The position numbers and the translations under genes were made by a program. Positions 30,501-53,510 of a stretch of 64,000 bases of DNA are shown piece after piece (the stretch's first letter is position 1; the number at the start of each line of letters is the position of its first letter). Source of the stretch: Lampris incognitus (lineage: Eukaryota > Chordata > Actinopteri > Lampriformes > Lampridae); NCBI RefSeq assembly GCF_029633865.1, contig NC_079217.1, forward strand, positions 59,627,578 to 59,691,577, in the 5' to 3' direction. Under the pieces are notes generated by a model. That model searched no databases. It was not told the origin of the DNA and was given only the letters and a program-made list of their open reading frames with translations.

Positions 30501-33500
30501 TGCAAGGCAAGATGGCTGCAAAGTTGTAGCTGCAAGGTGGCGGATGAATCACGCACTAAAATCCCCGTCACGCTTTCTCCATCTGAAAAAAATTATGTCT
30601 CCCCAAATAAAATCTGTTTCTAACACAGCTAAAGCCACCAACTGATTTTTGTTCTACGAGTCGAATACTGTCTTATGGAGGCACTCGTGAATTTTGAAGC
30701 AGTAATTTCATCATGAGCAATGTTGATTCCTAATATTATTGCTTCCTAATATTGTTGACTCCATCCCTGTGTCAAATAAATCTGAGATGCTTAATCGTTT
30801 TAACAAATATTTTATAGCCTCCTCTTTGGCACATTATCTGATGGCATACCATCCATACACCCCCCCCCCCCCCCCGCGCCAGTCATGCCTCTAATACTCA
30901 CACTTTCTCCTTCACCCCCTTTTCTGTTAAGGAGGTTTGTAAGGCCTTAAAAGGACCTTGACCCTAGAAAGTCGGCAGGCCCCGACAGTCTCCCCCCTTA
31001 CTTTTTATGCCTGGCTTGTAGTATCCTGACTACATGAAATAAGCACACACACAGGATTTGTTTACTTATATATTGATGAAAACGTAGAGAGCACTACACA
31101 GCACAGCCATCTCAGCAGGCATTCATTACATAACAGAACTACATCCGGGGGAAGGTCCTAGGTAGTAATGGGTAAACCAATTTACTGCTACTGCCACCTA
31201 GTGGACATACAGGTAAGTGGATCTGGTTTATTACACAAGTTACTACACTCCCCCACCGTTAGGCTAACAAAAAGTTTCTGCACAGGGATCAACAATACTA
31301 ATAACGAGAAACACAGTAGGCATGTGCCAAACGGGACCTCCAACTAGTGTAATGTGATTCAAAATGACTCATTCTAGTCAACATTTAACAGGCACTTTCG
31401 AGTAAACAATTGTTTGTTTGTTTTTTGCTTTTTGTTTTTTTCTAACATGTTTTCAATACTACCTAGGAAGTTCAGGGTGAACTACCTGACTCCCGTGAGA
31501 TCAAGGCACATTCTTGCCTTTCCTGGAACATGATCTCACCACTACCTATCATAGTCTTTCAGATAAGTTGGGGAACGCTTCTGCCGGGTGGACTGACAAA
31601 CCTCCTGTGGCGGTGGTGCGACAGGTAAGACCACTCTTTCAGGGATCACCCTCTCTGGCCCCCGGGGTTCAACCGCAGGCTTCTGTTCGACCCCCAGGTT
31701 CTCTGATAGTCTCACAGGAGCTACTTCTGAACTGCATTCCAGCTCCTCTGGAGGTTCCATAGGTTGGTCTGGAGATTGGCAGGACTACAGGTGACGTGCT
31801 CGCACCTGGTCAATGTGTCTCCTCATCCTCTGTCCACTGCCAAGAATCACCGTATAGGAAACAGGACCAGAAGACGACTCAACTGCAGCTGGAATTCATT
31901 TTGGTCCTAAGCCGTAATTCCTTGTGTATACAGCATCCCCGGGTGCAAATCTTCTCAGCTTGGCCGTTTTGTCATGATATTCTTTCTGTTTCAGCTGTTT
32001 CTGTTGAATTTTCAACTTTAGGTCAGGTTTCAGTAGGTCAAACGCAGATCTCAGTCATCTGGACATCAACATTTCTGCAGGCGACAACCCTGTCGTCGCC
32101 TGAGGGGTGATGCGGTAGCTGAACAAGAACCTGGAAACTGGCCTCGATGCTATCTCCTCTCATTTTTTTCATCCCTTCTTTAAAGGTCTGCACCGCCCGC
32201 TCCGCTAAACCGTTAGAGGAGGAGTAGAACGGCACTGAGGTGACATGCTGAATCCCGTTCTGTGACATAAAATGGCTGAATTCCGCACTTGTGAAGCAAC
32301 TGCCGTTGTCAGACACCAACATCTGTGGCAATCCATGGACTGCGAAGCACTGCCGTAGCTTTTCAATTGTTGCATGTGTTGTAGAGGCATTCAGCGGATA
32401 AACCTCTAGCCACTTCGAATGTGCGTCAATTATTACCAAGAACATCTTGCCCAAGAATGGCCCTGCGTAGTCCACATGAATGCGAGACCATGGCAGCTCG
32501 GGCCATTCCCAGGGGTGCAGTGGTGCATTAGGTGGCGATTTTCTATTTTGCTGGCATTCCACGCATATGCTGGCCTCCTTTCTGATATCCTCGTCCATCC
32601 GCGGCCACCAAATGTAAGACCTTGCTAAACCTTTCATACGAGACATGCCCGGATGTGACTGATGGAGCATCTTCAACAGAGCAGACCACCCCTGCGGAGG
32701 AATCACTGTTCTGGCTCCCCACAGGACACACCCATCTCGCGTACTCAACTTCAGACGGTGGGTGTGATATGGCATGAGTTGGGGATCCTTCACCTCTGGC
32801 CAGCCATTCAAGACATAGCTGTGCACCAGGGACAGTGTGGCATCCCTCGCCATCCACTTCCTGACTTGTGACATGTTCACCGGTACATCATCCATATGAT
32901 CCATCATCAGCACTTGATCCTGTAGACCGTGATCCTCAACCAGCTCTGGAACCGGGAGTCAACTGAGAGCATCGTCGTTACTATGATACTTGCCCGGCTT
33001 GTAGATTATCTGATACATGTATACTCGAAGTAGAACTGCCCATCTCTGAATTCTTGGGGAAACCATCTGGGGGACAGGTTTCATCTCATGGACTAAGGAT
33101 AGTAAGGGCTTATGGTCAGTGGCGATCGTGAATCTACGACCATAGAGATATTTATGAAATCTCCGTATTCCAAAGATCACGGCCAGGCCCTCTTTATCTA
33201 GCTGAGAGTACCTTTCTCAGAAGGAGTGAGTGTCCTTGACATAAACCCTAGTGGTTTTTCTGTGCCATCGGGCATCTTGTGCGAAAGCATTGCTCCCACC
33301 CCATACGATGAGACGTCACATGCTAGGATCAATTCTCTGTCCACAGAGTAATGGACTAGCACGCTTGCTGATTGGAGAAGCTCTTTTGACTTTTGGAAAG
33401 CTTCATCTCACTTTGTAGTCCTTGCCCATTTTTCATCTTTCCAGAGGAGCTGGTGCATCGGCGCAAGCAGCGTGGAGAGGTTGGGAAGGAAACGGTTATA

Positions 33501-36500
33501 GTAGTTAAGTAAACCAAGATATGCCTTGAGCTCTGTGACACTGGACAGGGACGGAGCTTCCACAGTGGCTTTAACCTTCGACTTCATGGGATGCAAACCC
33601 TGCGCGTCTACTTTATGTCCCAGATAGTACACCTCATTTTCCAGCAGTTGGCACTTGCTTCGTTTTAGCTGTAACCCAGCCTCCTCCAGCCACCTAAGCA
33701 CTTCATTCAGGTTTCGCAGATGTTCTTCCTTGCTAGCCCCAGTGACGAGAATGTCGTCTAAGTATACTGCAACCATGGGTATGCCCTGTAGAAGACCCTC
33801 CATAGTTCTCTGAAACACGGCCAGCGCTGACGATACCCCAAAGGGTAGGCGGTTGTAAGTAAAAAGGCCTTTGTGAGTATTCACCGTGAGGTACTTTTTA
33901 GACTCATCATCCGTGAGAATTTGAGCACATGCATGGCTCACGTCTAATTTAGAAAATTGCTGCCCCCCCGACAAGGCCACAAACAAATTGTCAATTCTCG
34001 GAATAGGATACTGCTCTAGCGGAAAGACACGATTGCCAGTTAGTTTGTAGTCTCCACAGAGTCTAATTGAGCCATCCGGTTTCAAAACTGGAACCACGGG
34101 ACACGCCCACTGTGAGTATGACTGGCGTAATGATCTGCTCTTTTAACAGTCTGTTGATCTCTGCTTCCACTTTAGGGCGCATTGCGAATGGAACAGATCG
34201 TGGGTGGAAGAATCTGGGCGTGGTGTCAGGTGCAACATGGATTGTGGCCTGAACCCCCTATAAGGTCCCAAGCTCATCTTTAAAAAACATCCTCGTGCTT
34301 TGCAAGCACCTGTTGCAATGTCAGCTCTTCTACTTTCATATGCTTAATTTCTCCCCAATTAAGGTTTATTTGCTCCAGCCAACCTCTACCTAGCAGAGTT
34401 GGACCAGTACCACCCACTACATAGAGAGGTAAGATTTTCTGCTGGTTCTGGTATTGGACAATTACCTCTGCGACCCCTAACACCTTTATGCTTTCCCCTG
34501 TGTAAGTCTTTAATTTAATTGCTGATGGCTTTAATTAAGGCTTTTTTGCATTTGTCCACTGCACTTTAAATTTTGACTCATTCATCAAAGTGATGCTACA
34601 TCCAGTGTCCAGCTCAAATTCCACCATTTTCCCATTGATTTGCATGTCCACTGTAAAGGGTTTCACTTCTGCGTGGCTACTTTGTACGCTGTACATTGAA
34701 AACGCCTGTTCCGAGCCCTCTGATTCGTCTGAATCAACTGTGACATGATGTGAGCGGCTGCTGTGGCCTCTGCCCTGCGCATTGCTACGGTGCCTTCGAT
34801 CTCTGTTCGTTTTAGCTTCACTGCGCTTTTTCTTGTTTCTACACGCCCGCGCAATGTGGCCCATCATTCCACACGAATGGCATTTTTCTTGTTTAAATCG
34901 GCAATCCGACGGTGCATGTTTGCCTTTGCAACGGTAACAGTCTTTCATTTCACCCTCTGCGCGGTTCTCAGTTCTCCTTTGCGATGCCAGTAGCTCGCTA
35001 CTGTGTTCCCCTATTCTATTGCCTGCCGCTTTCCCCTGCAAATCTTGAGCATGTTTTTCGGCGGACTCCATGGCTATAGCTGTTTTAAGTGCGTACTCAA
35101 ATGCGAGATTGGTTTCCGACAATAACCTCCTCTGAATGCGTTCGTTGTTTATTCCGCATACAAGCCGATCACGGAGCATTTGTAAAAGCGTTTGTCCGCA
35201 ATTGCAGTCTTGAGCTAATCTCTGTAGCTCTGCCACAGACTCAGCAACAGACTCGTTTAGTTGGGCTTTCTCATGCGCGAATCCAATTTAAAGCGCTGTA
35301 CGGTTTCGCTGGGTTTTGGGTTAAAGTGGTATTTAAACAACGTCACTAACTGTCACAGCCCCTCTCCCTTGACACCTGCTGACCCCCCCTTCACCCCGGC
35401 ACACCAGCTGGCCATCAAAGCAATCGCCCAGCTGGCCATCAAAGCAATAGCCCTCTCTCCCTTGACACCTGCTGACCCCTCCTTCTCCCTGGCACACCAG
35501 CTGGCCGTCAAAGCAATCGCCCTCTCTCCCTTGACACCTGCTGACCCCCCCTTCACCCCGGCACACCAGCTGGCCATCAAAGCAATCGCCCTCACCCTTA
35601 AAAAGCCTCCACTGTGGACCAGTCTTCGCTGGAATGTAGCCATTCATGGACTTCTGCCTGCCAGTCTACCTGCCACTGAGCCAACTCCTGCTCTACCCCT
35701 GGGATCGGCCACTTCAATAAAGACTTGATTTCTTCCCTTACCTAGTTGTCCCATCTGCTTTTGGGTTCTTTCCAGATACATGACAGTAACTCTTGGAAAG
35801 TGTGTTCTCCTGGCTTATCAGGGCTTAGTAAACTGCGCATCAGACGATACGTTTGTGCACCGACAACACTTATGAGAACTGACTTCTGTTTGGCTGCATC
35901 CTCTGTTACGTTTGCGATAAAAAAAATGTTTCACAACCTCACAGTATTCTTCCCAGGTTTGAACATTTTGATCAAACGCTCCCAGAGCTCCTATTGTCCC
36001 GGCCATTTTCAATAAAGTTAACTTTTGTTTCTTCCTCCCCCCTCGTTCTTCCAGGAAAAAAAAACCCTCACCCACACGCTCCTCTCGTACAAGCAGCGCT
36101 GTCCGGCTCGAACCTCGTCGCCAAATATGTAGTATCCTGACTACATGAAACAAGCACACACACAAGATTTGTTTACTTATATATTGATGAAAACTTCAGG
36201 AGCATTATACAGCACAGCCACCTCGGCAGGCATTCATTACACAACAGAACTACATCCGGGGGAAAGGTCCTAGGTAATAATGGGTAAACCAATTTACTGC
36301 TACTGCCACCTAGTGGACATACAGGTAAGTGGATCTGGTTTATTACACAAGTTACTACATGGCTGCAGATATTATAGCTGACCTAGTGTTGCAGGTTTTA
36401 ACCTCTTTATACAATTCCCGATGTTTAGAAAACTGCCTATGTTCTCCCTTTACTGAAAGGCGGTAATCACATGGTGTTGAATAACTACAGACCCATTTAC

Positions 36501-42500: not shown

Positions 42501-45500
42501 AGCATGCTAGCTATATAAGCTAGTATGCTAAAACAGCCCACTGTGAAAACACAGTGCATTGAACTTTAACCAGTCTGACCCAAAATTAGGTAATTTTGAC
42601 AATAGCAAAATTACACTCAAAATATTGCAGTGCACCTGGAATGACAGAAATGTTGGCAAATGACAAGAGATAGGGAGAGAGCTAAGGGGCAGAAGAGGTT
42701 TTAGTTCTGTCGTCACAAGAGCACGTCAGAACGGCCAGAAGAGGAAGAGCTACATAAGAATTAGATTTCAGATTTCTAAAACGTCCCTCTCAGACATGGA
42801 AAAGTACTTAAGAAGACATGGCAGGGCTGAAAAGTTTCCCAAGGTTGAGTTTACCTGATGATGCTCGTCCATATTCTGTGTGTTGGTCGGACTGAAATAG
42901 GATCTGAGCCAGCCAGGGTCTGTAGAACGGTACACATCAACACACTCATGTACAAGCACACACATGAAAGCCTCTTCATTTGACTTTGTATTCTTACAAC
43001 AAATTTGTTGTCTGCATTTAACTCATCCAATTGTATAGGAGCAGTGGGAAACTGCAGCGCCCGGGGACCAACTCTAGTTCTTTCTATTGCCTTGCTCAGG
43101 GGCAAAGGCAGGAATATTGACACTAACATGCATGTCTTTTTGATGGTGGAAGGAAACCGGAGCACCCGCAGGAAATCCACGCAGACACGGGCAGAACATG
43201 CAAACGCCACACAAAGGACCTGTGATGGCCTGGGGTTCGAACCCAGGACCTTCTTGCTGTGAGGCAACAGTGCTAACCACTGGGTCGCCATGCTGCCGCA
43301 TGCACTTAGTTCTAACACTAACCAGAGTTCATGTCCACCATCTGTGTGTTTGTGTGGGCGTGCAGATGGTACCATTTATACAAAGATCCAACAAAGACCT
43401 CAAAGGCAGAACTGGTGGAAGATGTCTCCAGGTCACAACAGCATTAACAGTGGATGAAGGCTGCAACAGAGGGCGGTCCCCAATCGTCTTGGTTCTCCAT
43501 GCCATTGGACTCTGGCCACCCCCTGTCAAGGACTGTGTGGTGGCTGCAGGCGCATCAGTCGCTCCACATACAAAGCTGTCACACCCAGGCGTCCTCCCCT
43601 TATGCGGCTCCAGGATCAGCCTCTATACCCATCTGAGGACCCAGAGGGAGGATGGTCAAACTCGATGCCGAGTGGCCGCCAATGATGACGATGACCATTT
43701 ATATAGGAGCCATTTATGTAGTCAAATTTATTTATATAGCCAAATTCACTAGGTAGTCATGAAGGGCTGCACAACCAGAACAATATATTTTGGGGCAGCA
43801 CAATGTCCAAATGGTCAGCACTGTTGCCTCACAGCAACAAGGTCCTGGGTTCGAACCCCAGGCTGTCTCAGGTCCGTTCTGTGTGGAGTTTGCATGTTCT
43901 CCCCATGACTGCGCGGGTTTCCTCTAGGTGCTCCGGTGTCCTCCCACCATCCAAGAGACATGCATGTTAGGATTAATACTCCTGCCTGTGCCCCTGAGCA
44001 AGGCAATAGGACCTGGAGTTGGTCCCCGGGTGCTGCAGCTGCCCACTGCTCCTATACAATAGGATGGGTTAAATGCAGAAAACAAATTTAATTGCTAGCA
44101 TGGTAGCTGGAAATGTAGTTAGGTGGATGTGACTGATGTTTCATGTATACTGCAGTGCTGTATTTAAAGGAAAGAGATTGTGGTTATTGTCAAGCCTTAT
44201 TTCCCGAATGAGTGATATCCTCAAATCTAGTAATGTGCTAGTGGAGTACATTAAGGAATTATTTGGTTGTGGGATCATATGCCCATGTATGGTTGTTTGT
44301 TTCCGTTTGTATTTTCAGATACCACAGACATCTATATACTTTGTACCCCTCTCCAAGTGCCAAGATAAAGTTTGCAAGCTATTATCTGCTTCCATGTCCA
44401 CTCCTTAATCTGAGTCCCACTGTAGATGGATATCCACCTATAACACATTTCTTCCTGTCCTCTGTCACACCAGCCACCTGCATGTCCTCCCTCACCACAT
44501 CCATAAACCTCCTCTTTGGTCTTCCTCTTCTCCTCTTCCCTGGCTGCTCCATATTCAGCATCCTTCTCCCACTATACCCAGCATCTCTCCTCCACACATG
44601 TCCAAACCATCTCAACCTTGCCTCTCTTGCTTTGTCTCCAAACCGTCCAACCTGAGCTGTCCCTCTAATATATTCGTTCCTAATCCTGTCCTTCTTCATC
44701 TCTCCCAATAAAAATCTTATCTTCACCTCTGCCACCTCCAGCTCCACCTCCTGTCTTTTCATCAGTGCCACTGTCTCCAAACCATATAACATAGCTGGTC
44801 TCACAACCGTCTTGTAAACCTTCCCTTTAACTCTTGCTGGTACCCTTCTGTCACAAATCACTCCTGATACTCCTCTCCACCCACTCCACCCTGCCTGCAC
44901 TCTCTTCACCTCTCTCCTGCACTCCTCGTTACTTTGGACAGTTGATCCCAAGTATTTAAACTCAACTGCCTTCGTCACCTCTACTCCTTGCATCCTCACG
45001 ATTCCGCTGTCCTCCCTCTCATTCACGCATATGTATTCCGTCTTGCTCCTACTGACTTTCATTCCTCTTCTCTCCAGTGTATACCTCCATCTCTCAACCC
45101 GCTCCTTACTGACGCTACAGGTCACAATGTCATCCGTGAACATCATAGTCCACGGAGACTCCTGCCTGATCTCGTCCGTCAACTGTCCATCACCATTGCA
45201 AACACAAAAGGGCTCAGAGCCGATCCTTGATGTAATCCCACCTCCACCTTGAACCCATCTGTCATTCAAACCACACACCTCACCACTGTCACACTGCCCT
45301 CATACACATCCTGCACCACTCCTACATACTTCTCTGCAACTCCCGACTTACTCATACAATACCACACCTCCTCTCTTGGCATCTGTTACGTTTCCCGTTA
45401 AAGGTCCAGGAGATGAGGGGAAGTAACAAAGAAAATAAAAGTATCCCGGGGGAATAAGAAAGGTGGGAGGCGGAACCAGGTGTAAAAACAGATTAACAAA

Positions 45501-48500
45501 ATTAACTCTTAGTCAAACTACAGAATAAACAGGTAACTAAAGATGCTGGCTCTTAACTAACCAGGCTTTAACCAAAACTCAGATCAAACCAAACCGAAAC
45601 AAGAACACTAATAAGTTTCACCCTCCTTCTCAAGGAGTCTAGACACAAGAGCTTGCTCTCTGGTTGGCAACAATGGCCCACTGGCCGTCTCTCTCACTCT
45701 AGCTGCCAACAATGGCCCACTGGCCCTGTTGGGTGTCTCTCTCCAAGTTACTATATACCCAGCTGATGAGGAATTGGGGTCACCTGGGCTCAATCAGCAG
45801 TTCCATAGGAGGCGGGGCATTACTTGGAGAGGGAAAATTAGACACACGGCACTAGGGCCGTAACACCCCCTCCCATAAGTACAAACCCTAGGTTTGTATA
45901 TATGAGAGGGTAATCACATACACAACACACGGCATTGGGGCCGTAACACACCCTCTCATAAATACAAACCCTAGGTTTGTCTACAAGAGGGTAATCGCAT
46001 ACACAACACACGGCACTGGGGCCGTAACACCCCCTCCCATAAATACAAACCCTAGGTTTGTCTACAAGAGGGTAACTGCAACACACGGTACTGGGGCCGT
46101 AACACCCCCTCCCATAAATATAAACCCTAGGTTTGTCTACAAGAGGGTAATCGCATACACAACACACGGCACTGGGGCTGTAACACCCCCTCCCATAAAT
46201 ACAAACCCTAGGTTGGCATTCAAGAGGGTAATCCTCTTCACTCCCTTGGAAGTTGGCTTCATTCTTCCCCCTGAGCAAGGCATCCTCCTGTTGTTTCGCT
46301 ATTGAAAGCTTCTTGTTGAGGATGTCGACCTGCTCCTTTACAGAGCGAATCTTCCTCAGGGCCTCTTCGTCAGCCATCTTCTTGCCTTCTCTTCGCTCCC
46401 TCTCTTCCAGGTCCTTCAGCCCCAGCTCCTCTGCCTCGGTCTTCTCAGCCGCCATGAGCTGGACTTTGTCCCTCTGCTCCTTGGGTGCTGAGCGGTACAT
46501 ATCAAGCAGCAGCTTCAACTCCCGCTGAGACTTCTGGGCTTCTTCGAGTTCTACATGGACAAACTTCAGCAGCTCCATATCTTTACTCCTCTGATTCGCC
46601 AGCTCCAAACGAAGCTGCTCTGCCTCAACCCGCATTGCATGGCACTGGCGTGTGAGGTCAGCGACGGCAGACTCGAGGTGTGCAATTCTCACCTCCTGCT
46701 TCCTGGGCTGGTTTAGGTCCTCCCCATTCCCTCTCACCTGGGACACGGCCGCCCGCCGACTGCGGTTCTGCCGCTTACATTTTAAGGCCTCACAATGGGC
46801 AACCAAATGTCCAGGCATATGGCAGAAAAAACACAGTTTCTCCACTTTAGGTTTTGGAGGGGTACCAACACGTGAAGCTTGAGTAACTGGCAAGTTAGCA
46901 TTTCGTGAGTCGTCGCTGCAGGGGAAGGAAATATTACGCGGTACAAAGATGTTTTTATGTGGGAGCGCGAATTCGTCCGCCAACACTGCTGCCTGATGCA
47001 GAGTAGACACTTTTTGTTCATTCAAATAAGTGACAATGCGGTCAGGCACACAGTTTTTAAAATCCTCCAACACCATCAGCTCTTTTAAGGACGCCAAGTC
47101 GTGGACCTTGCAAGCCGAACACCATCGTTCAAAGAGAAGGCTTTTCCCCCGCGCAAAGTCAGTATACATCTGATTTGGGCTTTTCCTGAGGCCTCTGAAA
47201 CGTTGTCGCTACGCCTCTGGCACTAACTCATATGCCCGCAGAATGGCACTTTTGAGTTTTTCATAGACAATGCTATCCGCGGTGGGAAGTGAGGCGCAAG
47301 CTTCCAGAGCTTTCCCAGTTAGTTTACACTGGAGCAATATAGCCCAGGCATCCTGCGGCCAGCTCAAAGCGGCGGCTATGCGCTCAAACGCACCGAAGTA
47401 GGTTTCAACTTCGGCCTCACGGAACACAGGGACCAACGTGATGTTTTTGCTCACATCAAAAGCAGCGGTAGAGCTTGGTGTCGGCAACTCACTCGTAACA
47501 GCCGAGCCAGGTCCTAACTGCAGCTCTAACTGTCGCATTGTGACGGCTGTCTCTGCCTCCAACTTCCTCAACTCCAACTTCCTACGAAGCTGAAGTTCCC
47601 TTTCCTCTTTTTCCAACTGGAGACGAGCAAGACGGACTTGTAACCGCACATCCAGTTTAGAACCAGGCGTGGACTCTACGGAGAAAGGTTCGAAGGGGGG
47701 TAGGGTAACCGGTTTCTTCTGTGTCACACCACGGGAACCCGGAGTAAAACTAACCGGTATTTGCTCAGCCGGCTCCTCTGCCGGAGAATCAGGGCGGCTG
47801 TCAGCCGAGAACAATGCGGCTTCTCTACGAGGCGCCGGTAAGCTAAGAACCCCTCCAACAATCAGTGCATCTATAAGCGCAGCTTTCAGGTCCCTTTTAG
47901 AAAGAGAACCTGAGATGGAGATGCCATAATGCAGCGCAATATCACATAGCTCTTTTTTCCTACAATCATCCAGCTGAGCTAATGTAGGATTAGCTGTAAA
48001 TTCACACAAATCAAACGTAGCCATAGTTGAGGACACCACAACACCACGTACAGGCCTCAGCTACCGCCACTCAACCTCACACCTTCAAAAGGTCACATCC
48101 ACCAGTGGCAAATTACGGCAAACTGAAATTAGACGTATGGCTAGCCCAACAAACAAACTTCCCCCATTCCTACCTGGTTGAAGCTTCGCCTATCTGTCTT
48201 CTCGGAGCGTGCCGGGCTAGAGGCGGCTTTAAAGGCTGAACTTCGGCGGCCTGAGCCCCGAAAAGCCTACCCCCGCCAGGGAGCGTTGTCCCCGCCCAGG
48301 ATTACTCCTAAAACAAGAAAGGCAAAATAACAAGAGTGTCTGATGGAAGGACTGATCACAGCCAGCTGGACACTCCCCTATTCTAACCAGGGATGCTGCC
48401 TGAGACACCAACCGAAGTGCAATATTCACCGCGCCCGCCACCGGAGACAAGCTGCACACAGCAACAATTAACACACACCAGGAATCCACCTCCTTACTGT

Positions 48501-50827
48501 CTTATTCACACGAGCCCCCAATTGTTACGTTCCCCGTTAAAGGTCCAGGGGATGAGGGGAAGTAACAAAGAAAATAAAAGTATCCCGGGGGAATAAGAAA
48601 GGTGGGAGGCGGAACCAGGTGTAAAAACAGATTTATTAACAAAATGAACTCTTAGTCAAACTACAGAATAAACAGGCAACTAAAGATGCTGGCTCTTAAC
48701 TAACCAGGCTTTAACCAAAACTCAGATCAAACCAAACCGAAACACAAATAAGTTTCACCCCCCTTCTCAAGGAATCTAGACACAAGCGCTTGCTCTCTGG
48801 TTGGCAACAATGGCCCACTGGCCCTGTTGGGTGTCTCTCTCCAAGTTATATACCCAGCTAATGAGGAATTGGGGTCACCCGGGCTCAATCAGCAGTTCCA
48901 TAGGAGGCAGGGCATTACCTGGAGAGGGAAAATTAGACACACGGCACTAGGGCCATAACAGCATCCCATCATATGCTTTCTCTAAATCCACAAAGACATA
49001 GTGTAACTCCCTCTGGCCTTCTCTATACTTCTCATCAACACTTTCAAAGCAAACATCACATCTGTGGTGCTCTTTCATGGCATGAAACCATACTGCTGCT
49101 CGCTGATCCTCACCTCTCCTCTTAACCTAGCTTCCATTACTCTTTCCCATATCTTCACGCTGTGGCTGATCAACTTTATAGCTCTGTAGAATAGAAATGT
49201 TATTCTCAGCACTTTGAAGACCAGGTCCAGGTGTATATATGAAACGACTTGTGTGAAATAAAGGCGCAGACCACATCCCCTCTTGATTCAATACGGGATG
49301 CAGCATCCTATTTTCCAATACAAGATGGCCCTGTATTATAAGGGACGGGTGGCAACCCTGGTTGGTGTCCAGGAGAAGAGTTTCTCAAGGAGCTTCAGTC
49401 AGATTTTCACAACAAGAGATCTAATATTTTGGATAAATTAACATTGAAAACAAATGTTCCATAGCCCTCAGGATTGACTTAAGTCCTCAATAGATGAGAG
49501 CGCTCACTAATAACTACCTAATGTTAACCATGAACTTAACTGCTATCTAAAATGAACCCTAAACTTGACCACTACCTAACCTTAACCCTAAACTAAACCA
49601 CCCTAATTCTGCTTACCCACTTGATAAGACTTAAATAACGCTTAAAATGTTACAATTATGAATGAATAAATGAGTCTACCGTTTTTAATGTTACTTTTTC
49701 TAAACTTAATTATTTCAACATACACAAAGTTGAATTGCACTTTTGTGTCTGTTAGTGGGACAATTTGGAATGGCTAGTTTGTCTTAGGTAGAGAGTAAAC
49801 AGGATGGTGTGTTGGTCAGAACACAGGAATGAAGAGGAGACGCGGACTTCGTTTGTGTGAGCTGCACTGAAATCCAGCATAAATTATAGCGAGTTCTGCA
49901 ACAACAAAAAGGGGAATTGCCATTAGGCACTAGCATGGCAACATTACAGTTAGGGTAGGCCTATTACTATCATATAACGACACAATGGCGACATCTGCTG
50001 GAGAGATGAAGAACAACAAAATGGAGTCCGCGCTGGACGATCAACACAAACGGCCAAACCAACACACGACGGCATAAACTGCACGCTAGCCTATGACAGC
50101 TTATAGGGAATCACCTTTGCTAAGCTAGCACTTGACCCAAGGAATAATGCAGGACATGCTAACATGGAATATGTCTTCCCCACACTTTAGAACCCACGGG
50201 TGCGCAGCGAGCTAGCAACAACTACATAGACTAGCTAAACATAACGAGGCAACTCAGCCTGGAACACTTACTTTTCGTCGGTGACCCAAAGAACAAGCTG
50301 GACCGCAACAAAGGACAAAAGAGGACAAATTCACTATACACGTAGACACAAGAATTGCAGGGGAAAACTACATGCACTGTGTACTTATAACACAGGGCCT
50401 CTAGCAAAACTACAACTAAACCCAGGCTGCGTCACTCACAGCAGGAGAATCTGGCCAGAGTCTTAAAGGGGCAGGCACCTATAAATGTCAGAGCCTTTTT
50501 TACAGTGTCATCATCTGAGCAAGATTGTGTGAGATGTGAACATCGAATCTCCCTACCTCTGTACCGTGTACATGATTATTAACGACGACTTAATTGAAAA
50601 ACCTGCCTTAAAAAAAACTGCATTTGGAATGCAACCAATCAGCCCTTATTTAGGCTCCGTAGTTTAAGTTTATGTAGTAAAAGCCTCCCCCACTGTCGCA
50701 GTAAGGCCTACCTGTATAGCCAGAACAGCAGCATCACAGACAGGACGGTGAGGACAGGTATCAGGTAGACGATCCGTTTGAAGCTCCACAGTTTCGGCTG
50801 CTGGTGATAATATTTTGGATGAGACAT
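20367..50827 (-). CDS. GT92-family glycosyltransferase, type II membrane protein, 9 coding exons
   Basis: Host gene read on the minus strand by joining 50827-50712, 42919-42855, 40760-40666, 38270-38051, 30324-30200, 26391-26280, 22915-22714, 22548-22210 and 20505-20367. The total is 1413 nt, a 470-aa protein plus stop. Every junction is GT..AG and every phase agrees; no frameshift or stop is needed. The product starts [10 protein letters not shown] and has a membrane anchor at about residues 19-38, typical of a Golgi type II enzyme. A lumenal stem follows, then a family 92 domain with a cysteine cluster (109-113), the segment SFPHNFTVC (187-195) and an acidic DMD motif (300-302) as the likely metal/sugar-nucleotide site. 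Sequons lie near N73, N191, N229 and N260. The family includes C. elegans GALT-1, a galactosyltransferase; the acceptor here is unknown. Teleosts carry several such uncharacterised genes. The exon model is my reconstruction. Confidence 0.88.
20580..22067 (-). mobile_element. Tc1-like DNA transposon, degenerate, in GT92 intron 8
   Basis: The transposase (21613-20483) is split by frameshifts. It has the paired-like N-terminus, [20 protein letters not shown], the first catalytic D in WTDETK, and the second in QQDNDPKHT. The right end reads ccaccactg followed by TA (22068). Inner direct repeats tgagtggcaaaagtatgtga occur in both arms (20645 and 21880), but the left outer repeat was not found. Confidence 0.88.
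22210..22548 (-). CDS. GT92 exon 8: C-terminal half of the domain
   Basis: A 339-nt exon with acceptor CTTCCAG and donor CAAG|GTATTG. It contains a proline-rich insert (PPPPSSLSP) and the typical segment [18 protein letters not shown]. Intron 7, upstream, is only 164 bp, the shortest in the gene. Confidence 0.9.
22645..22695. repeat. (CA)n microsatellite in intron 7
   Basis: CA repeats interrupted by tgcatg, lying 20 bp past the exon 7 donor. Confidence 0.9.
22714..22915 (-). CDS. GT92 exon 7: acidic (DMD) active-site motif
   Basis: A 202-nt exon with acceptor TACCAG and donor ACAG|GTAGTC. It encodes [20 protein letters not shown] followed by ALHDMDEL, the expected position of the DxD-like motif. 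Confidence 0.92.
22926..23635. other. intron 6 sequence, nothing recognised
   Basis: AT-rich intron with no long frame and no repeat family I recognise. Confidence 0.5.
23642..24320 (+). repeat. tRNA-derived SINE split by a 250-bp insert
   Basis: The head (ggacgtccgggcagcgtggc, with gccagttcgaact as B box) ends at about 23742. The body resumes at about 23995 with attggccgtgtctg. In the copy at 38914 these parts are contiguous, so 23743-23994 is an insert. Confidence 0.75.
24380..24690 (-). mobile_element. short non-autonomous derivative of the RTE-like LINE
   Basis: One end matches the 3' tail of the LINE at 60663 (ggggtcgccacagcgga). The other matches its 5' region (ttaacccgggcctcgac, gatttggcaaa). 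Both ends are kept and the coding middle is missing. Confidence 0.6.
24817..24855. repeat. (GA)n microsatellite
   Basis: About 38 bp of GA. Confidence 0.95.
24860..25490. other. unassigned; GC-rich block at 25170-25480
   Basis: An A-rich stretch is followed by a GC-rich segment in which accgccctcggtgtt occurs twice (25268, 25460). It abuts the Rex1-like LINE and may be its upstream part; no convincing coding match. Confidence 0.3.
25490..26268 (+). mobile_element. Rex1-like LINE, 3' end of ORF2 and tail
   Basis: The plus frames read [40 protein letters not shown], then across frameshifts [20 protein letters not shown] and [13 protein letters not shown]. These match the RT C-terminus of fish Rex1/Babar elements. 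The tail ends tgtaataaacctttcaatctt. It stops about 10 bp from the GT92 exon 6 donor. Confidence 0.8.
26280..26391 (-). CDS. GT92 exon 6
   Basis: A 112-nt exon with acceptor CTTTCAG and donor ACAG|GTACAG. It encodes [20 protein letters not shown], the Rossmann-like strand-helix of GT92. The 3' end of a Rex1-like LINE lies about 10 bp inside the following intron. Confidence 0.9.
26461..27380 (+). mobile_element. Penelope-like element, RT end, GIY-YIG domain and 3' region
   Basis: The frame from 26522 has VRGY-like [12 protein letters not shown], then [20 protein letters not shown] and [20 protein letters not shown]. The next frame continues [20 protein letters not shown] and the segment WFEREVRG. 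This is the linker and GIY-YIG endonuclease of fish Penelope elements. The YIG core is mutated (LNIAET). The ends carry inverted copies of gttgaatcagttcatc, as pseudo-LTRs do. A hammerhead-like core lies at 27303-27355. Confidence 0.82.
27381..27872. other. unassigned intron 5 sequence with (TG)n
   Basis: Holds a TG repeat at 27533-27560. No frame or known repeat recognised. Confidence 0.5.
27873..29454 (+). repeat. solo LTR of the 9060-14211 Gypsy family
   Basis: Starts tgtagggtatgcaac and ends gcccgctaca. It matches the LTR at 12252-14211 in inverse orientation along its whole length, but lacks the TRIM insert. No internal region follows. The flanks (gtaca, taaac) do not form a clear duplication. 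Confidence 0.85.
29455..29870 (+). mobile_element. L2-like LINE 3' end
   Basis: The frame reads [20 protein letters not shown], and the tail has taagtcgctttggataaaag and gctaaatgactgtaatgtaa. Same family as 3732-4486, opposite strand. Confidence 0.8.
30200..30324 (-). CDS. GT92 exon 5
   Basis: A 125-nt exon with acceptor CCTCTTAG and donor CTGCAG|GTAGAC. It encodes the family signature [15 protein letters not shown]. Confidence 0.88.
30420..30770. other. intron 4 sequence, nothing recognised
   Basis: AT-rich, with no frame or repeat match. Confidence 0.5.
32038..32913 (-). pseudogene. Gypsy integrase
   Basis: A 291-codon frame with the zinc domain ([25 protein letters not shown]) and all three core residues: D in IHVDYAGP, D in [10 protein letters not shown] in [11 protein letters not shown]. 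It shifts frame after DSIEASF; the C-terminal part continues at 31760-31542 (YLKDYDR). Confidence 0.9.
33408..34097 (-). pseudogene. Gypsy reverse transcriptase
   Basis: A 229-codon open frame with [44 protein letters not shown], the catalytic YLDD in [12 protein letters not shown], and [17 protein letters not shown] frameshift at about 33415 separates it from RNase H (to 32959, with [20 protein letters not shown]-like sequence). Confidence 0.9.
34535..36010 (-). pseudogene. Gypsy gag and protease, with repeat insert
   Basis: Gag starts [20 protein letters not shown] near 36005. It is interrupted at about 35740-35345 by a minisatellite block. It resumes [17 protein letters not shown], then [20 protein letters not shown]. 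Two zinc knuckles follow ([27 protein letters not shown]), then the protease motif [16 protein letters not shown]. Confidence 0.85.
35350..35600. repeat. minisatellite inside Gypsy gag
   Basis: Tandem units of about 74 bp (tctcccttgacacctgctga, then caccagctggccatcaaagc), about three copies, plus an extra 24-bp subunit duplication near 35409. Confidence 0.85.
38051..38270 (-). CDS. GT92 exon 4: cysteine-rich part
   Basis: A 220-nt exon with acceptor CGTCCAG and donor AAAG|GTAGCA. It contains YRCYICC and the segment [12 protein letters not shown], which matches the cysteine pattern at the start of GT92 catalytic regions. It ends on one base, completed to a GAG codon by exon 5. Confidence 0.87.
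38449..40483 (+). mobile_element. RTE-like LINE, internally deleted, holding a SINE
   Basis: Flanked by a 14-bp duplication gtgccacaagtgca (38435-38448, 40484-40497). The 5' part encodes an endonuclease start ([40 protein letters not shown]). After the SINE come [19 protein letters not shown] and [10 protein letters not shown]. The 3' part reads [13 protein letters not shown]-like sequence in other frames. Compared with 60663-63816, most of the RT is missing. Confidence 0.85.
38914..39350 (+). repeat. full-length tRNA-derived SINE in the RTE LINE
   Basis: The head gggcgtccaggtagcatagc has an A box (tagcatagcgg) and B box (caattcgaatccc). The body is the same as at 60-352, with a G-rich tail. 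It splits the LINE endonuclease frame after SVLE. Confidence 0.85.
40666..40760 (-). CDS. GT92 exon 3: start of lumenal domain
   Basis: A 95-nt exon with acceptor CATTCAG and donor GAG|GTCAGT. It contains [10 protein letters not shown], the entry strand typical of GT92 proteins, and an NGT sequon. Confidence 0.85.
40780..41510. other. intron 2 sequence, nothing recognised
   Basis: No frame or repeat match in this AT-rich stretch. Confidence 0.5.
41535..41884 (-). repeat. full-length tRNA-derived SINE
   Basis: Read on the minus strand: head ggcgtccgagtggtgtggct, B box ccggttcgaatcccc, then the shared body ending near aagagtggggtaat. Confidence 0.88.
41886..42395. repeat. common fish interspersed repeat (family not assigned)
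   Basis: Begins caattttatctgtatagccc and aatatcacaaattacaaatt, a sequence found throughout percomorph genomes. No coding. Confidence 0.55.
42855..42919 (-). CDS. GT92 exon 2: stem region
   Basis: A 65-nt exon with acceptor TTCTACAG and donor CAG|GTAAAC. It was picked because it alone meets both phase constraints: it takes two bases from exon 1 and gives one to exon 3. It encodes a 21-residue stem segment beginning [10 protein letters not shown]. Being short and divergent, it is the least certain coding exon. Confidence 0.7.
42965..43305 (-). repeat. tRNA-headed SINE, second family
   Basis: On the minus strand: gcggcagcatggcgacccag, tggttagcactgttgcctca, B box gggttcgaaccccag, ending near ggatgagttaaatgcagac. 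A plus-strand copy lies at 43793. Confidence 0.75.
43340..43790. repeat. unassigned repeat-like block
   Basis: Frames here look coding-like on the minus strand, but the sequence (gacagggggtggccagagtc) resembles a repeat I recall from other fish. No GT92 exon phase fits. It lies between two inverted SINEs. Confidence 0.35.
43793..44090 (+). repeat. tRNA-headed SINE, second family
   Basis: ggggcagcacaatgtccaaa, tggtcagcactgttgcctca, gggttcgaaccccaggctg, ending gatgggttaaatgcagaaaa. Confidence 0.78.
44100..44395. other. intron 1 sequence, nothing recognised
   Basis: No repeat family or frame that I can support. Confidence 0.4.
45838..48039 (-). CDS. gag-BRE1 coiled-coil fusion ORF, one in-frame UAG
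   Basis: The first ATG is at 48039 (MVSSTMATF), and a frame of 734 codons runs to 45838 with a single TAG at 47211-47209. Residues 1-100 resemble a DNA-binding SAP-like N-terminus ([14 protein letters not shown]). Next is a charged coiled coil ([20 protein letters not shown]), then the SCAN-type capsid region ([20 protein letters not shown]). After the UAG the frame continues with CHDLASLK-like capsid sequence and the knuckle [14 protein letters not shown]. From 46581 to 46273 it has [20 protein letters not shown] and [18 protein letters not shown], close to RNF20/RNF40. The end is encoded by an 81-bp tandem repeat. The ATG choice is uncertain. Confidence 0.82.
45866..46235 (-). repeat. 81-bp tandem repeat of the purine tract and LTR start
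   Basis: About five units, spaced 83, 81, 75 and 81 bp. In element orientation each contains atttatgggaggggg followed by tgttacggccccagtgccgt, that is, a polypurine tract and the first 22 bases of the LTR. The 81-bp unit keeps the reading frame. Confidence 0.88.
48509..48522 (-). promoter_or_regulatory. tRNA-Pro-type primer binding site
   Basis: Directly after the 5' LTR end (minus strand): attgggggctcgtg. TGGGGGCTCGT is the start of the classic tRNA-Pro primer site. Confidence 0.7.
49191..49362. repeat. DNA-element-like repeat fragment
   Basis: Reads on the minus strand ccagggttgccacccgtccc and ttataatacagggccatctt. I recall this as a widespread vertebrate repeat; the class is uncertain. 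Confidence 0.4.
49363..50700. other. intron 1 sequence, mostly unassigned
   Basis: A region with many taaccctaaac-type words (49500-49610) looks like degenerate simple sequence. No exon or TE frame found. Confidence 0.4.
50712..50827 (-). CDS. GT92 exon 1: start codon, cytoplasmic tail and membrane anchor
   Basis: The ATG is at 50827-50825. The exon encodes 38 residues plus two bases: a short basic tail (KLWSFKR) and then a hydrophobic segment ending FWLY. The donor is AG|GTAGGC. An acceptor-like CCACCACAG lies about 15 nt upstream of the ATG, so at least one 5' non-coding exon probably exists. Confidence 0.85.
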
Positions 50828-51884: not shown

Positions 51885-53510
51885 CAGTGCATCCGGAAAG
51901 TATTCACACCCCTTCACGTTCCCCACATTTTGTTATGTTACAGCCTTATTCCAAAATAGGATTAAATTCCTTTTTTCCCTCATCAATCTACACACAATAC
52001 CCCATAATGACAAAGTGAAAATGTTTTGTTGAAATTTTTGCAAATTTATTAAAAATAAAAAACTGAAAAACTGCATGTACATAAGTATTCACACCCTTTA
52101 CTCAGTACTTGGTTGAGGCACCCAGCCTCAAGTCTTCTTGGGTATGAAGCTACCAGCTTGGCACACCTATATTTGGGGTATTTCTCCCATTCTTCTCTGA
52201 AGATCCTCTCGAGCTCTGTAAGGTTAGATGGGGAGCATCGCTGCACAGCTATTTTCAGGTCTTTCCAGAGATGTTCAATGGAGTTCAAGTCTGGGCTCTG
52301 GCTGGGCCACTCAAGGACATTCACAGACTTGTCCCGAAGCCACTCCTTCGTTGTCTTGGCTGTGTGCTTAGGGTCGTTGTCGTGTTGAAAGGTAAACCTT
52401 CGCCCCAGTCTGAGGTCCTGAGCGCTCTGGAGCAGGTTTTCATCAAGGATCTCTCTGTACTTTGCTCCATTCATCTTTCCCTCGATCCTGACTAGTCTCC
52501 CAGTTCCTGCCGCTGAAAAACATCCCCGCAGCATGATGCTGCTGCCACCACCATGCTTCACTGTAGGGATGGTATTAGCAAGGTGATGAGAGGTGCCTGG
52601 TTTACTCCAGATGTGACATTTGGCATTCAGGCCAAAGAGTTCAATCTTGGTTTCATCAGACCAGAGAATCTTGTTTCTCATGGTCTGAGAGTCCTTTAGG
52701 TGCTTTCTGGCAAACTCCAAGCGGGCTGTCATGTGCCTTTTACTGAGCAGAGGCTTCCGTCTGGCCACTCTACCATAAAGGCCTGATTGGTGGAGTGCTG
52801 CAGAGATGGTTGTCCTTCTGGAAGGTTCTCCCATCTCCACAGAGGAACGCTGGAGCTCTGCCAGAGTGACCATCGGGTTCTTGGTCACCTCCCTGACCAA
52901 GGCCCTTCTCCCCCAATTGCTCAGTTTGGCTGGGCGGCCAACTCTAGGAAGAGTCCTGGTGGATCCAAACTTCTTCCATTTACGAATGATGGAGACCACT
53001 GTGCTCTTCGGGACCTTCAAAGCTGTAGAAATTCTTTTGTACCCTTCCCCAGATCTGTGCCTCGATACAGTCCTGTCTCGGAGGTCCACAGACAATTCCT
53101 TTGACTTCATGGCTTGGTTTCTGCTCTGACATGCACTGTCAACAGTGGGACCTTATATAGACAGGTGTGTGCCTTTCCAAATCATGTTCAATCCATTGAA
53201 TTTACTACAGGTGGACTCCAATCAAGGTGTAGAAACATCTCAAGGATGATCAGTGGAAACAGGATGAACCTGAGCTCAATTTTGAGTGTCATAGCAAAGG
53301 GTGTGAATACTTATGTACATGCAATATTTCAGTTTTTTATTTTTAATAAATTTGCAAAAATTTCTGCAAAACCTTTTTCACTTTGTCATTATGGGGTATT
53401 CTGTGTAGATTGATGAGAAAAGAAAGGAATTTAATCAATTTTGGAATAAGGCTGTAACATAACAAAACGTGGGGAAAGTGAAAGGGTGTGAATACTTTCC
53501 GGATGCACTG
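51885..53510 (-). mobile_element. full-length Tc1-like DNA transposon
   Basis: Ends are cagtgcatccggaaagtatt and its inverse, with TA on each side (51883-51884, 53511-53512). The inverted-repeat arms are about 200 bp. Each arm has an outer and an inner copy of the aagtattcacaccctt-type motif, so it is of the IR/DR type. The transposase frame inside is uninterrupted. Confidence 0.95.
52049..53110 (-). CDS. Tc1-like transposase, uninterrupted 353 aa
   Basis: Cut-and-paste DDE transposase acting in the nucleus on its own TIRs. It starts MKSKELSVDLRDRTVSRHRS at 53110, followed by a first helix-turn-helix (YKRISTALKVPKSTVVSIIR), a GRP-like linker (VGRPAKLS), a second HTH region, and the catalytic triad: D in WSDETKIELFG, D in FQHDNDPKHTA, E in SPDLNSIEHLWKDLK. 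Length is close to the family norm of about 340. The last 15 or so residues read into the inner repeat (CEYLCTCSFSVFYF), typical when the stop has drifted. Activity is untested. Confidence 0.93.
   Translation of the reverse strand: MKSKELSVDLRDRTVSRHRSGEGYKRISTALKVPKSTVVSIIRKWKKFGSTRTLPRVGRPAKLSNWGRRALVREVTKNPMVTLAELQRSSVEMGEPSRRTTISAALHQSGLYGRVARRKPLLSKRHMTARLEFARKHLKDSQTMRNKILWSDETKIELFGLNAKCHIWSKPGTSHHLANTIPTVKHGGGSSIMLRGCFSAAGTGRLVRIEGKMNGAKYREILDENLLQSAQDLRLGRRFTFQHDNDPKHTAKTTKEWLRDKSVNVLEWPSQSPDLNSIEHLWKDLKIAVQRCSPSNLTELERIFREEWEKYPKYRCAKLVASYPRRLEAGCLNQVLSKGCEYLCTCSFSVFYF

Follow-up and report, generated by a model that had tools for sequence, protein, structure and literature searches.

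In-frame gag fusion with pieces of two host coiled-coil genes, CCDC57 and RNF20, in a non-autonomous LTR retrotransposon family of the fish Lampris incognitus, probably formed by serial capture

The analyzed stretch of the Lampris incognitus genome (64 kb, hereafter the window) carries an LTR element on its minus strand, spanning positions 48960-45384. Its 438-bp 5' LTR (48523-48960) was delimited by alignment with the 3' LTR (45384-45865, both on the minus strand), which contains a 39-nt stretch absent from the 5' LTR; the pair shares 421 identities over 434 ungapped positions (13 mismatches, 97%). The pentanucleotide GCATC stands on both flanks as a 5-bp target-site duplication, at 48961-48965 on the 5' side and, identically, at 45379-45383 on the 3' side. 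A primer-binding-site-like sequence, TGGGGGCTCGT, was read on the minus strand 2 nt inside of the 5' LTR (48510-48520), and we take it to resemble the tRNA-Pro type of primer-binding site; a polypurine tract, GGGAGGGGG, also found by reading, adjoins the 3' LTR at 45866-45874 of the same strand. On its sequence, the element is classified as an LTR retrotransposon, since it combines direct LTRs at both ends with a target-site duplication, a primer site and a polypurine tract. No pol-like frame was seen among the open reading frames between the two LTRs. Both the bounded LTR element and its non-autonomous, pol-less character, proposed in an earlier sequence-only reading of the window, are thereby borne out. 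At 45842-46233 of the minus strand an 81-bp unit is repeated 4.9 times in tandem (repeat computation, motif by eye); every unit has a sequence resembling the polypurine tract and LTR edge, matching sequence is present in other copies of the family, and the array may provide several candidate plus-strand priming sites. The frame is open across the array, and its translation would append a cysteine-rich repeat peptide.

An older open frame, presumably LINE-like, was observed at 44382-45299 and from 48966 onwards, and the element lies beside and probably inside it. Positions 43001-44089 hold inverted repeats whose arms (80, 93 and 130 nt) are 84-90% complementary and lie 490-929 nt apart, and 52049-53152 is covered by a long open frame (367 residues stop to stop), which we take to be a Tc1-like transposase. 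Pol-type frames at 1602-2897 and 32038-34142, presumably Ty3/Gypsy-like pol pieces (reverse transcriptase and integrase-like), are separate from the element described here.

Between the LTRs there is a single gag frame, cut by an in-frame TAG (47209-47211, minus strand, open-frame reading) into 48060-47209 and 47208-45838; residue numbers given below without another reference (e.g., 144-168, 207-312) count along the second half. The 5' part of gag, from the ATG to this stop, corresponds to 47212-48024 and is matched in related elements, while the 3' part (46783-47208), recognized by Pfam and by gag relatives, comprises a SCAN-type domain (residues 1-84, Pfam E 3.9e-11) and a linker to the CCHC zinc knuckle (46792-46833), which was read and aligned with relatives; all these parts are on the minus strand. 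Fish gag relatives are 38-68% identical to the window gag, and the succession of SCAN and CCHC knuckle places it, as far as sequence can tell, in the SCAN-type Ty3/Gypsy (Metaviridae) gag lineage. In eight of the nine aligned relatives the knuckle runs into an LRDTG-like motif, which we assume to be a protease motif; in the window family host sequence stands there. The earlier view that gag continues in frame past its knuckle into a coiled coil was correct, but the TAG splitting gag at 47211-47209 had been missed. Though broken, the gag of the window copy is the fullest among the compared RNF20-bearing copies.

The larger host-derived piece (46273-46590, minus strand, residues 207-312), delimited by protein matches and alignments, runs across three host exon junctions. 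Its product matches the RNF20 structure PDB 8gui (E 2e-30), and the residues encoded by 46581-46273 match residues 623-731 of human BRE1A/RNF20 with E 2e-30, compared with 8.6e-27 for BRE1B/RNF40; fish BRE1A-type proteins match the captured piece at 72-79% over 98-106 residues and at up to 85% over 82. Since RNF20 scores higher and the host gene at 28.47 Mb of contig C1 matches BRE1A, RNF20 is taken as the source and RNF40 is rejected. The RNF20/RNF40 coiled coil named in the sequence-only reading, together with its strand, frame and coordinates (46581-46273), is therefore confirmed. RNF20 similarity probably resumes at 46272-46243 of the minus strand, beyond an in-frame deletion of about 72 bp that is private to this copy, as is supported by sequence and by spacing in other copies; taken alone, this tail (residues 312-331) is a weak match, its score being reached by 15 to 57 of 2000 shuffles. 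The C-terminal RING finger has no Pfam match in either half of the frame, and only the coiled-coil part is present; the fused frame consequently does not appear to belong to the RNF20/RNF40 (BRE1) ubiquitin ligases, which carry this RING. The captured part had no match in Pfam or NCBIfam, and scans of IMG/VR and prokaryote contigs yielded no relative. Among the 120 of 198 protein matches listed (7995 candidates scored), none displayed both gag and RNF20 similarity: gag-similar proteins end by residue 184 and RNF20-similar ones start at residue 193 or later, except for two BRE1A-type proteins (P0054 and P0109) with weak alignments back to residues 103 and 108.

The stretch between the knuckle and the RNF20 piece (46779-46591) proved to derive from a second host gene, CCDC57, which the sequence-only reading had missed while assigning the RNF20 part correctly. 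The second of its two pieces (46591-46704, minus strand, residues 169-206) spans a host intron and was recognized through four fish proteins. A search with residues 146-212 among proteins of about 250-800 residues gave no relative at E up to 10 among 21 candidates, and a wider length range gave 4 matches among 34 candidates, with 68-73% identity and E from 1.9e-7 to 2.3e-4 among 5.8 billion sequences. Two of them, from Gadus morhua and Gadus macrocephalus, are named CCDC57; those from Lota lota and Dallia pectoralis lack this name and show the same alignment pattern as the Gadus CCDC57. Residues 169-209 scored 131-152 versus shuffle means near 35, and 0 of 1000 shuffles reached the score for each of the four proteins. 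The first piece (46705-46779, minus strand, residues 144-168) meets the second through an in-frame loss of CCDC57 sequence. Residues 143-168 resemble CCDC57 further upstream (0, 0, 4 and 5 of 2000 shuffles), but they also scored against the gag relative P0008 (11 of 2000 shuffles), so their assignment relies mainly on sister elements, which carry a longer collinear CCDC57 stretch covering this region. In an excerpt of a zebrafish study, Ccdc57 is described as localized to basal bodies and controlling polarity in ependymal cells, and CCDC57 is termed a centrosomal satellite protein (PMC10013924).

Both source genes were found in the same genome (1.48 Gb, 537 contigs). The host RNF20 gene (L011, C1:28471000-28480900) extends to the last exon and matches BRE1A; inside the captured stretch it is interrupted by GT..AG introns of 518, 1502 and 235 nt, all three of which are missing from 16/16 aligned element copies. 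This alignment comprised the window copy and 15 fetched loci taken from the best-scoring matches, so it favors well-preserved copies; excluded from it were L010 and L012, which are broken or masked, and L025, whose CCDC57 match starts elsewhere than residue 143. DNA identity between the 16 copies and the joined RNF20 host exons ranges from 89.5 to 92.7% (alignment columns 193-498). Host CCDC57 exons lie between C22:15757577 and 15783421, and an intron of about 250 bases separates the exon ending LTQQ from the exon starting CHAKQ, whereas the elements have both joined. Capture from mRNA, previously suggested by the intron-free coil, is in line with these data; with host exons joined without introns inside it, the element can be counted among host-gene-transducing ones, and it combines an in-frame gag fusion with the loss of pol, the window copy having the upstream gag stop. 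Two further candidates were discarded: the region C5:35.87-35.88 Mb, considered as the host RNF20 gene, is a single copy of the element in two separate parts, and a 1907-residue frame at C11:62.38 Mb results from masking, L012 containing 4536 N.

A genome-wide search, in which match counts are lower bounds, revealed a multicopy family, as the sequence-only reading had proposed to check. The RNF20 segment gave at least 107 matches, merging within 2 kb into at least 81 loci, one of which is the host gene, and the CCDC57 segment at least 93 matches in at least 91 loci merged in the same way; both segments occur within 2 kb on one strand at no fewer than 71 loci on at least 21 contigs. Among the matches listed, 10 loci are RNF20-only, counting the host gene and part of a copy that is split, and 20 are CCDC57-only. 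Of the listed RNF20 matches, 44 cover 90 or more of the 103 residues, and 32 of these are stop-free within that stretch. LTR mismatch amounts to 1.0-2.9% in nine dated copies with two LTR matches. Six of the nine have a perfect 5-bp duplication, different in each (GCGAC, GAGAG, GGGTA, GTGGG, GCGAG and GACCC); in the remaining three there is one mismatch (L019), a 4-bp repeat (L018) or an outer LTR edge that was not reached (L013). The six different duplications speak against the loci being segmental duplicates with shared flanks, and, with at least 71 loci, they indicate transposition after the capture.

Reading covered nine of the 20 CCDC57-only loci (L029-L035, L037 and L040); all of these contain gag and CCDC57, gag being co-oriented in eight and opposite in L034. 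Eight of the nine have no RNF20 match, and the ninth, L035, combines trimmed CCDC57 with just the beginning of RNF20. The possibility that the coil is ancestral in this gag clade, named in the earlier reading as a ground for refutation, is rejected for the relatives and loci examined: eight of the nine relatives have the LRDTG-like motif, and no protein matching both gag and RNF20 is among those listed. L030 and L031 retain a long collinear CCDC57 stretch (residues 486-671 of P0122, with gaps). In L037 (C13:38878500-38882000), CCDC57 486-708 is joined to CCDC57 363-456, and in L040 (C3:106018500-106021500), CCDC57 552 to about 708 is joined to the same 363-456 piece; the order of the pieces in both is the reverse of that in the mRNA, with the join at ACTGTTGCC, and a circular RNA template could be an alternative source of this permutation. 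L038 and L039 carry RNF20 flanked by CCDC57 pieces; the match starts at residue 352-356 of P0037 and reaches about residue 539, with gaps. In the 16 aligned copies, CCDC57 is trimmed and the 3' end of RNF20 is shorter. At three joins the host transcripts share microhomologies of 7, 8 and 9 nt (AAGAGGA, AGCTGGAG and ACTGTTGCC, respectively). The chance of such a match is 9.5%, 4.4% and 1.6% in length-matched coding stretches (5000 draws each) and 4.9%, 1.2% and 0.2% in genomic 34-mers (2000 draws); the length-matched control is thus the less striking one, and by it no single microhomology is rare on its own.

Joins could be read directly and an order of events proposed owing to the presence of the intermediates and of both intron-bearing source genes in one genome. 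The joins would have been made by template switching of the reverse transcriptase onto spliced host mRNAs at short microhomologies. The CCDC57-only and nested elements, few loci considered outside a rooted tree, suggest that the capture of CCDC57 preceded the nesting of RNF20 within it, after which in-frame losses would have shortened both. As protease, reverse transcriptase and integrase are all missing from its coding capacity, we infer that the element is mobilized in trans by a putative pol-bearing relative. In the lineage that replicated, the frame would have encoded a gag with one long terminal helix, a possible oligomerizing tail; given that most fetched RNF20-bearing copies have lost most of SCAN and kept the knuckle and helix, this helix may substitute for SCAN. 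Host-gene capture by a non-autonomous fish LTR element is well supported, and the capture was probably serial. Taken together, the window very likely harbors one copy of a non-autonomous LTR family in which two host-gene pieces, acquired by serial template switching, occupy the place of pol and which is mobilized in trans.

Two other origins of the fused frame were weighed against this one. Unrelated coiled coils do cross-score at a low level, and the likeness to the host genes might have arisen by chance or convergence; however, the DNA identity of about 90% to host exons, extending across four exons, the E value of 2e-30 and the 0/1000 shuffles are at odds with such an origin, which is rejected and to which we ascribe a practically negligible probability. 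A true host fusion gene gag-CCDC57-RNF20 would leave intronless retrocopies that look identical in the captured part, with no template switching between transcripts. The copies, however, are complete elements with LTRs, target duplications, a primer site and a polypurine tract, and elements with CCDC57 only or with RNF20 between CCDC57 pieces exist beside them. Host RNF20 and CCDC57, searched exon by exon, are located on separate contigs (C1 and C22); exon-by-exon searches alone are insufficient against a fusion gene. Retrocopying of such a gene is considered very improbable.

Whether the fused protein serves the element was approached through the gag of the fetched RNF20-bearing loci (L013-L028, n = 16) and the pattern of substitutions. 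A gag deletion of exactly 495 nt (by BLAST edges) was found in 10 of these loci and a deletion of 497-500 nt in 4, L017 and L025 not being aligned that far. The 495-nt deletion reaches residue 63 or so in the second half, so that most of SCAN is gone, and it leaves the knuckle and coils in place; the sister elements L029 and L031 retain the SCAN region deleted elsewhere. An AlphaFold2 model of residues 169-326, built as a monomer from one sequence, predicted helix at 2-72 and 75-153 (mean pLDDT 88, pTM 0.39), with the long helix crossing the CCDC57-RNF20 join unbroken. The hydrophobic periodicity did not stand out, as 124 to 866 of 2000 permutations reached it. NG86 dN/dS of the 16 copies versus host exons was 0.34-0.59, a value that includes the constrained host branch. 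Between copies, pN/pS was 0.60 for RNF20 (bootstrap 0.33-1.13), 0.57 for CCDC57 (0.27-1.35), 0.58 for both together (0.36-0.99) and 2.9 for residues 144-168 (1.09-10.79), and private changes comprised 51.5 non-synonymous to 23.5 synonymous ones versus a neutral expectation of 2.5-2.9 to 1. Indels common to several copies measure 9 or 3, 6 and 3 nt, all in frame, and private frameshifts in the captured part occur in 3 of the 16 aligned copies (L018, L026 and L027). When change was simulated with RNF20 from other fishes as the reference, none of the 500 neutral runs made for each setting was as conservative for the RNF20 part; the own-genome tests are relied on instead, since the simulation mixes in host evolution. 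The comparison of dN/dS across copies, recommended in the sequence-only reading, yielded a ratio below 1 with an interval extending close to neutral, and past constraint on the fused protein appears to have been weak.

These data bear on two readings of the captured part. The host pieces may have been caught by accident and do nothing for the element, and such riding along is feasible because a non-autonomous element needs only LTRs, a primer site, a packaging signal and a polypurine tract; we consider the probability of this to be evenly balanced. It agrees with the near-neutral pN/pS between copies, the stop in gag of the window copy, the frameshifts in 3 of 16 copies and the lack of most of SCAN in most fetched RNF20-bearing copies, while the shared indels and the 495-nt deletion being multiples of three, as well as the 32 of 44 stop-free long RNF20 matches, argue against it. 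Alternatively, the captured helix could be a selected module. SCAN is a dimerization domain, and the long host helix would give gag an oligomerizing tail in its place, or a part that enters or poisons helper particles. The SCAN deletions, the predicted continuity of the helix at the CCDC57-RNF20 join and the pN/pS of 0.58 are consistent with this, but the constraint is weak and the helix is predicted for a monomer from a single sequence, and selection of the module seems rather unlikely to us. The fuller proposal, that serial capture of two coiled coils created a new oligomerization domain that replaced the capsid-like SCAN domain and let the element parasitize helper particles, is somewhat more doubtful still.

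Gag capture of host genes is known in kind. The gag of the family resembles the fish SCAN-type Ty3/Gypsy gags, reportedly treated by Emerson and Thomas in 2011, in its SCAN-type domain and zinc knuckle (at the 38-68% identity given above), and differs from eight of the nine aligned ones in having host sequence in place of the LRDTG-like motif. Maize Bs1 is said to have been studied by Jin and Bennetzen in 1994 and by Elrouby and Bureau in 2001 and 2010. In the portions of the literature consulted, Bs1 is an LTR retroelement with three host-gene fragments fused to gag (PMC8616336; PMC5408686), as in the Lampris family; however, it is a plant element with other host genes, whereas here a vertebrate SCAN-type gag has taken up coiled-coil pieces of two genes, the one lying within the other, with surviving intermediates and at least 71 loci. 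The avian leukemia virus E26, excerpted as carrying the tripartite fusion gag-myb-ets (PMC4276956), likewise has gag fused with two host genes, but it is a leukemia virus with transcription-factor genes and not a retrotransposon with coiled-coil pieces. LTR-mediated retroposition in metazoans, including zebrafish, proceeds by template switching to cellular mRNA at microsimilarities (Tan et al., 2016, as summarized in part of PMC5408686), the process we infer for Lampris; by that description it yields retrocopies, whereas the Lampris capture is in frame with gag, has been amplified and was probably serial. LTR loci of zebrafish with the internal part replaced by cellular genes, in a genome that also has SCAN-coding gags (PMC8672886, main text), are similar as fish LTR elements with host genes between the LTRs; that text names other genes, and the words "coiled", "RNF" and "chimeric" are absent from it. 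Searches of open-licence literature yielded no report of this combination, nor of RNF20 or CCDC57 carried by a retroelement.

Gene capture by retroelements is usually visible only as an end product. In L. incognitus, a single genome contains gag-CCDC57 elements, elements in which CCDC57 is joined to itself, others in which CCDC57 pieces enclose RNF20, and trimmed forms that were amplified. Caution is needed with fish gene models in which fragments of BRE1A or CCDC57 occur, as they may be retroelements. Host-gene acquisition by retroviruses and retrotransposons, and later selection on the captured pieces, can be tested here on tens of vertebrate copies.
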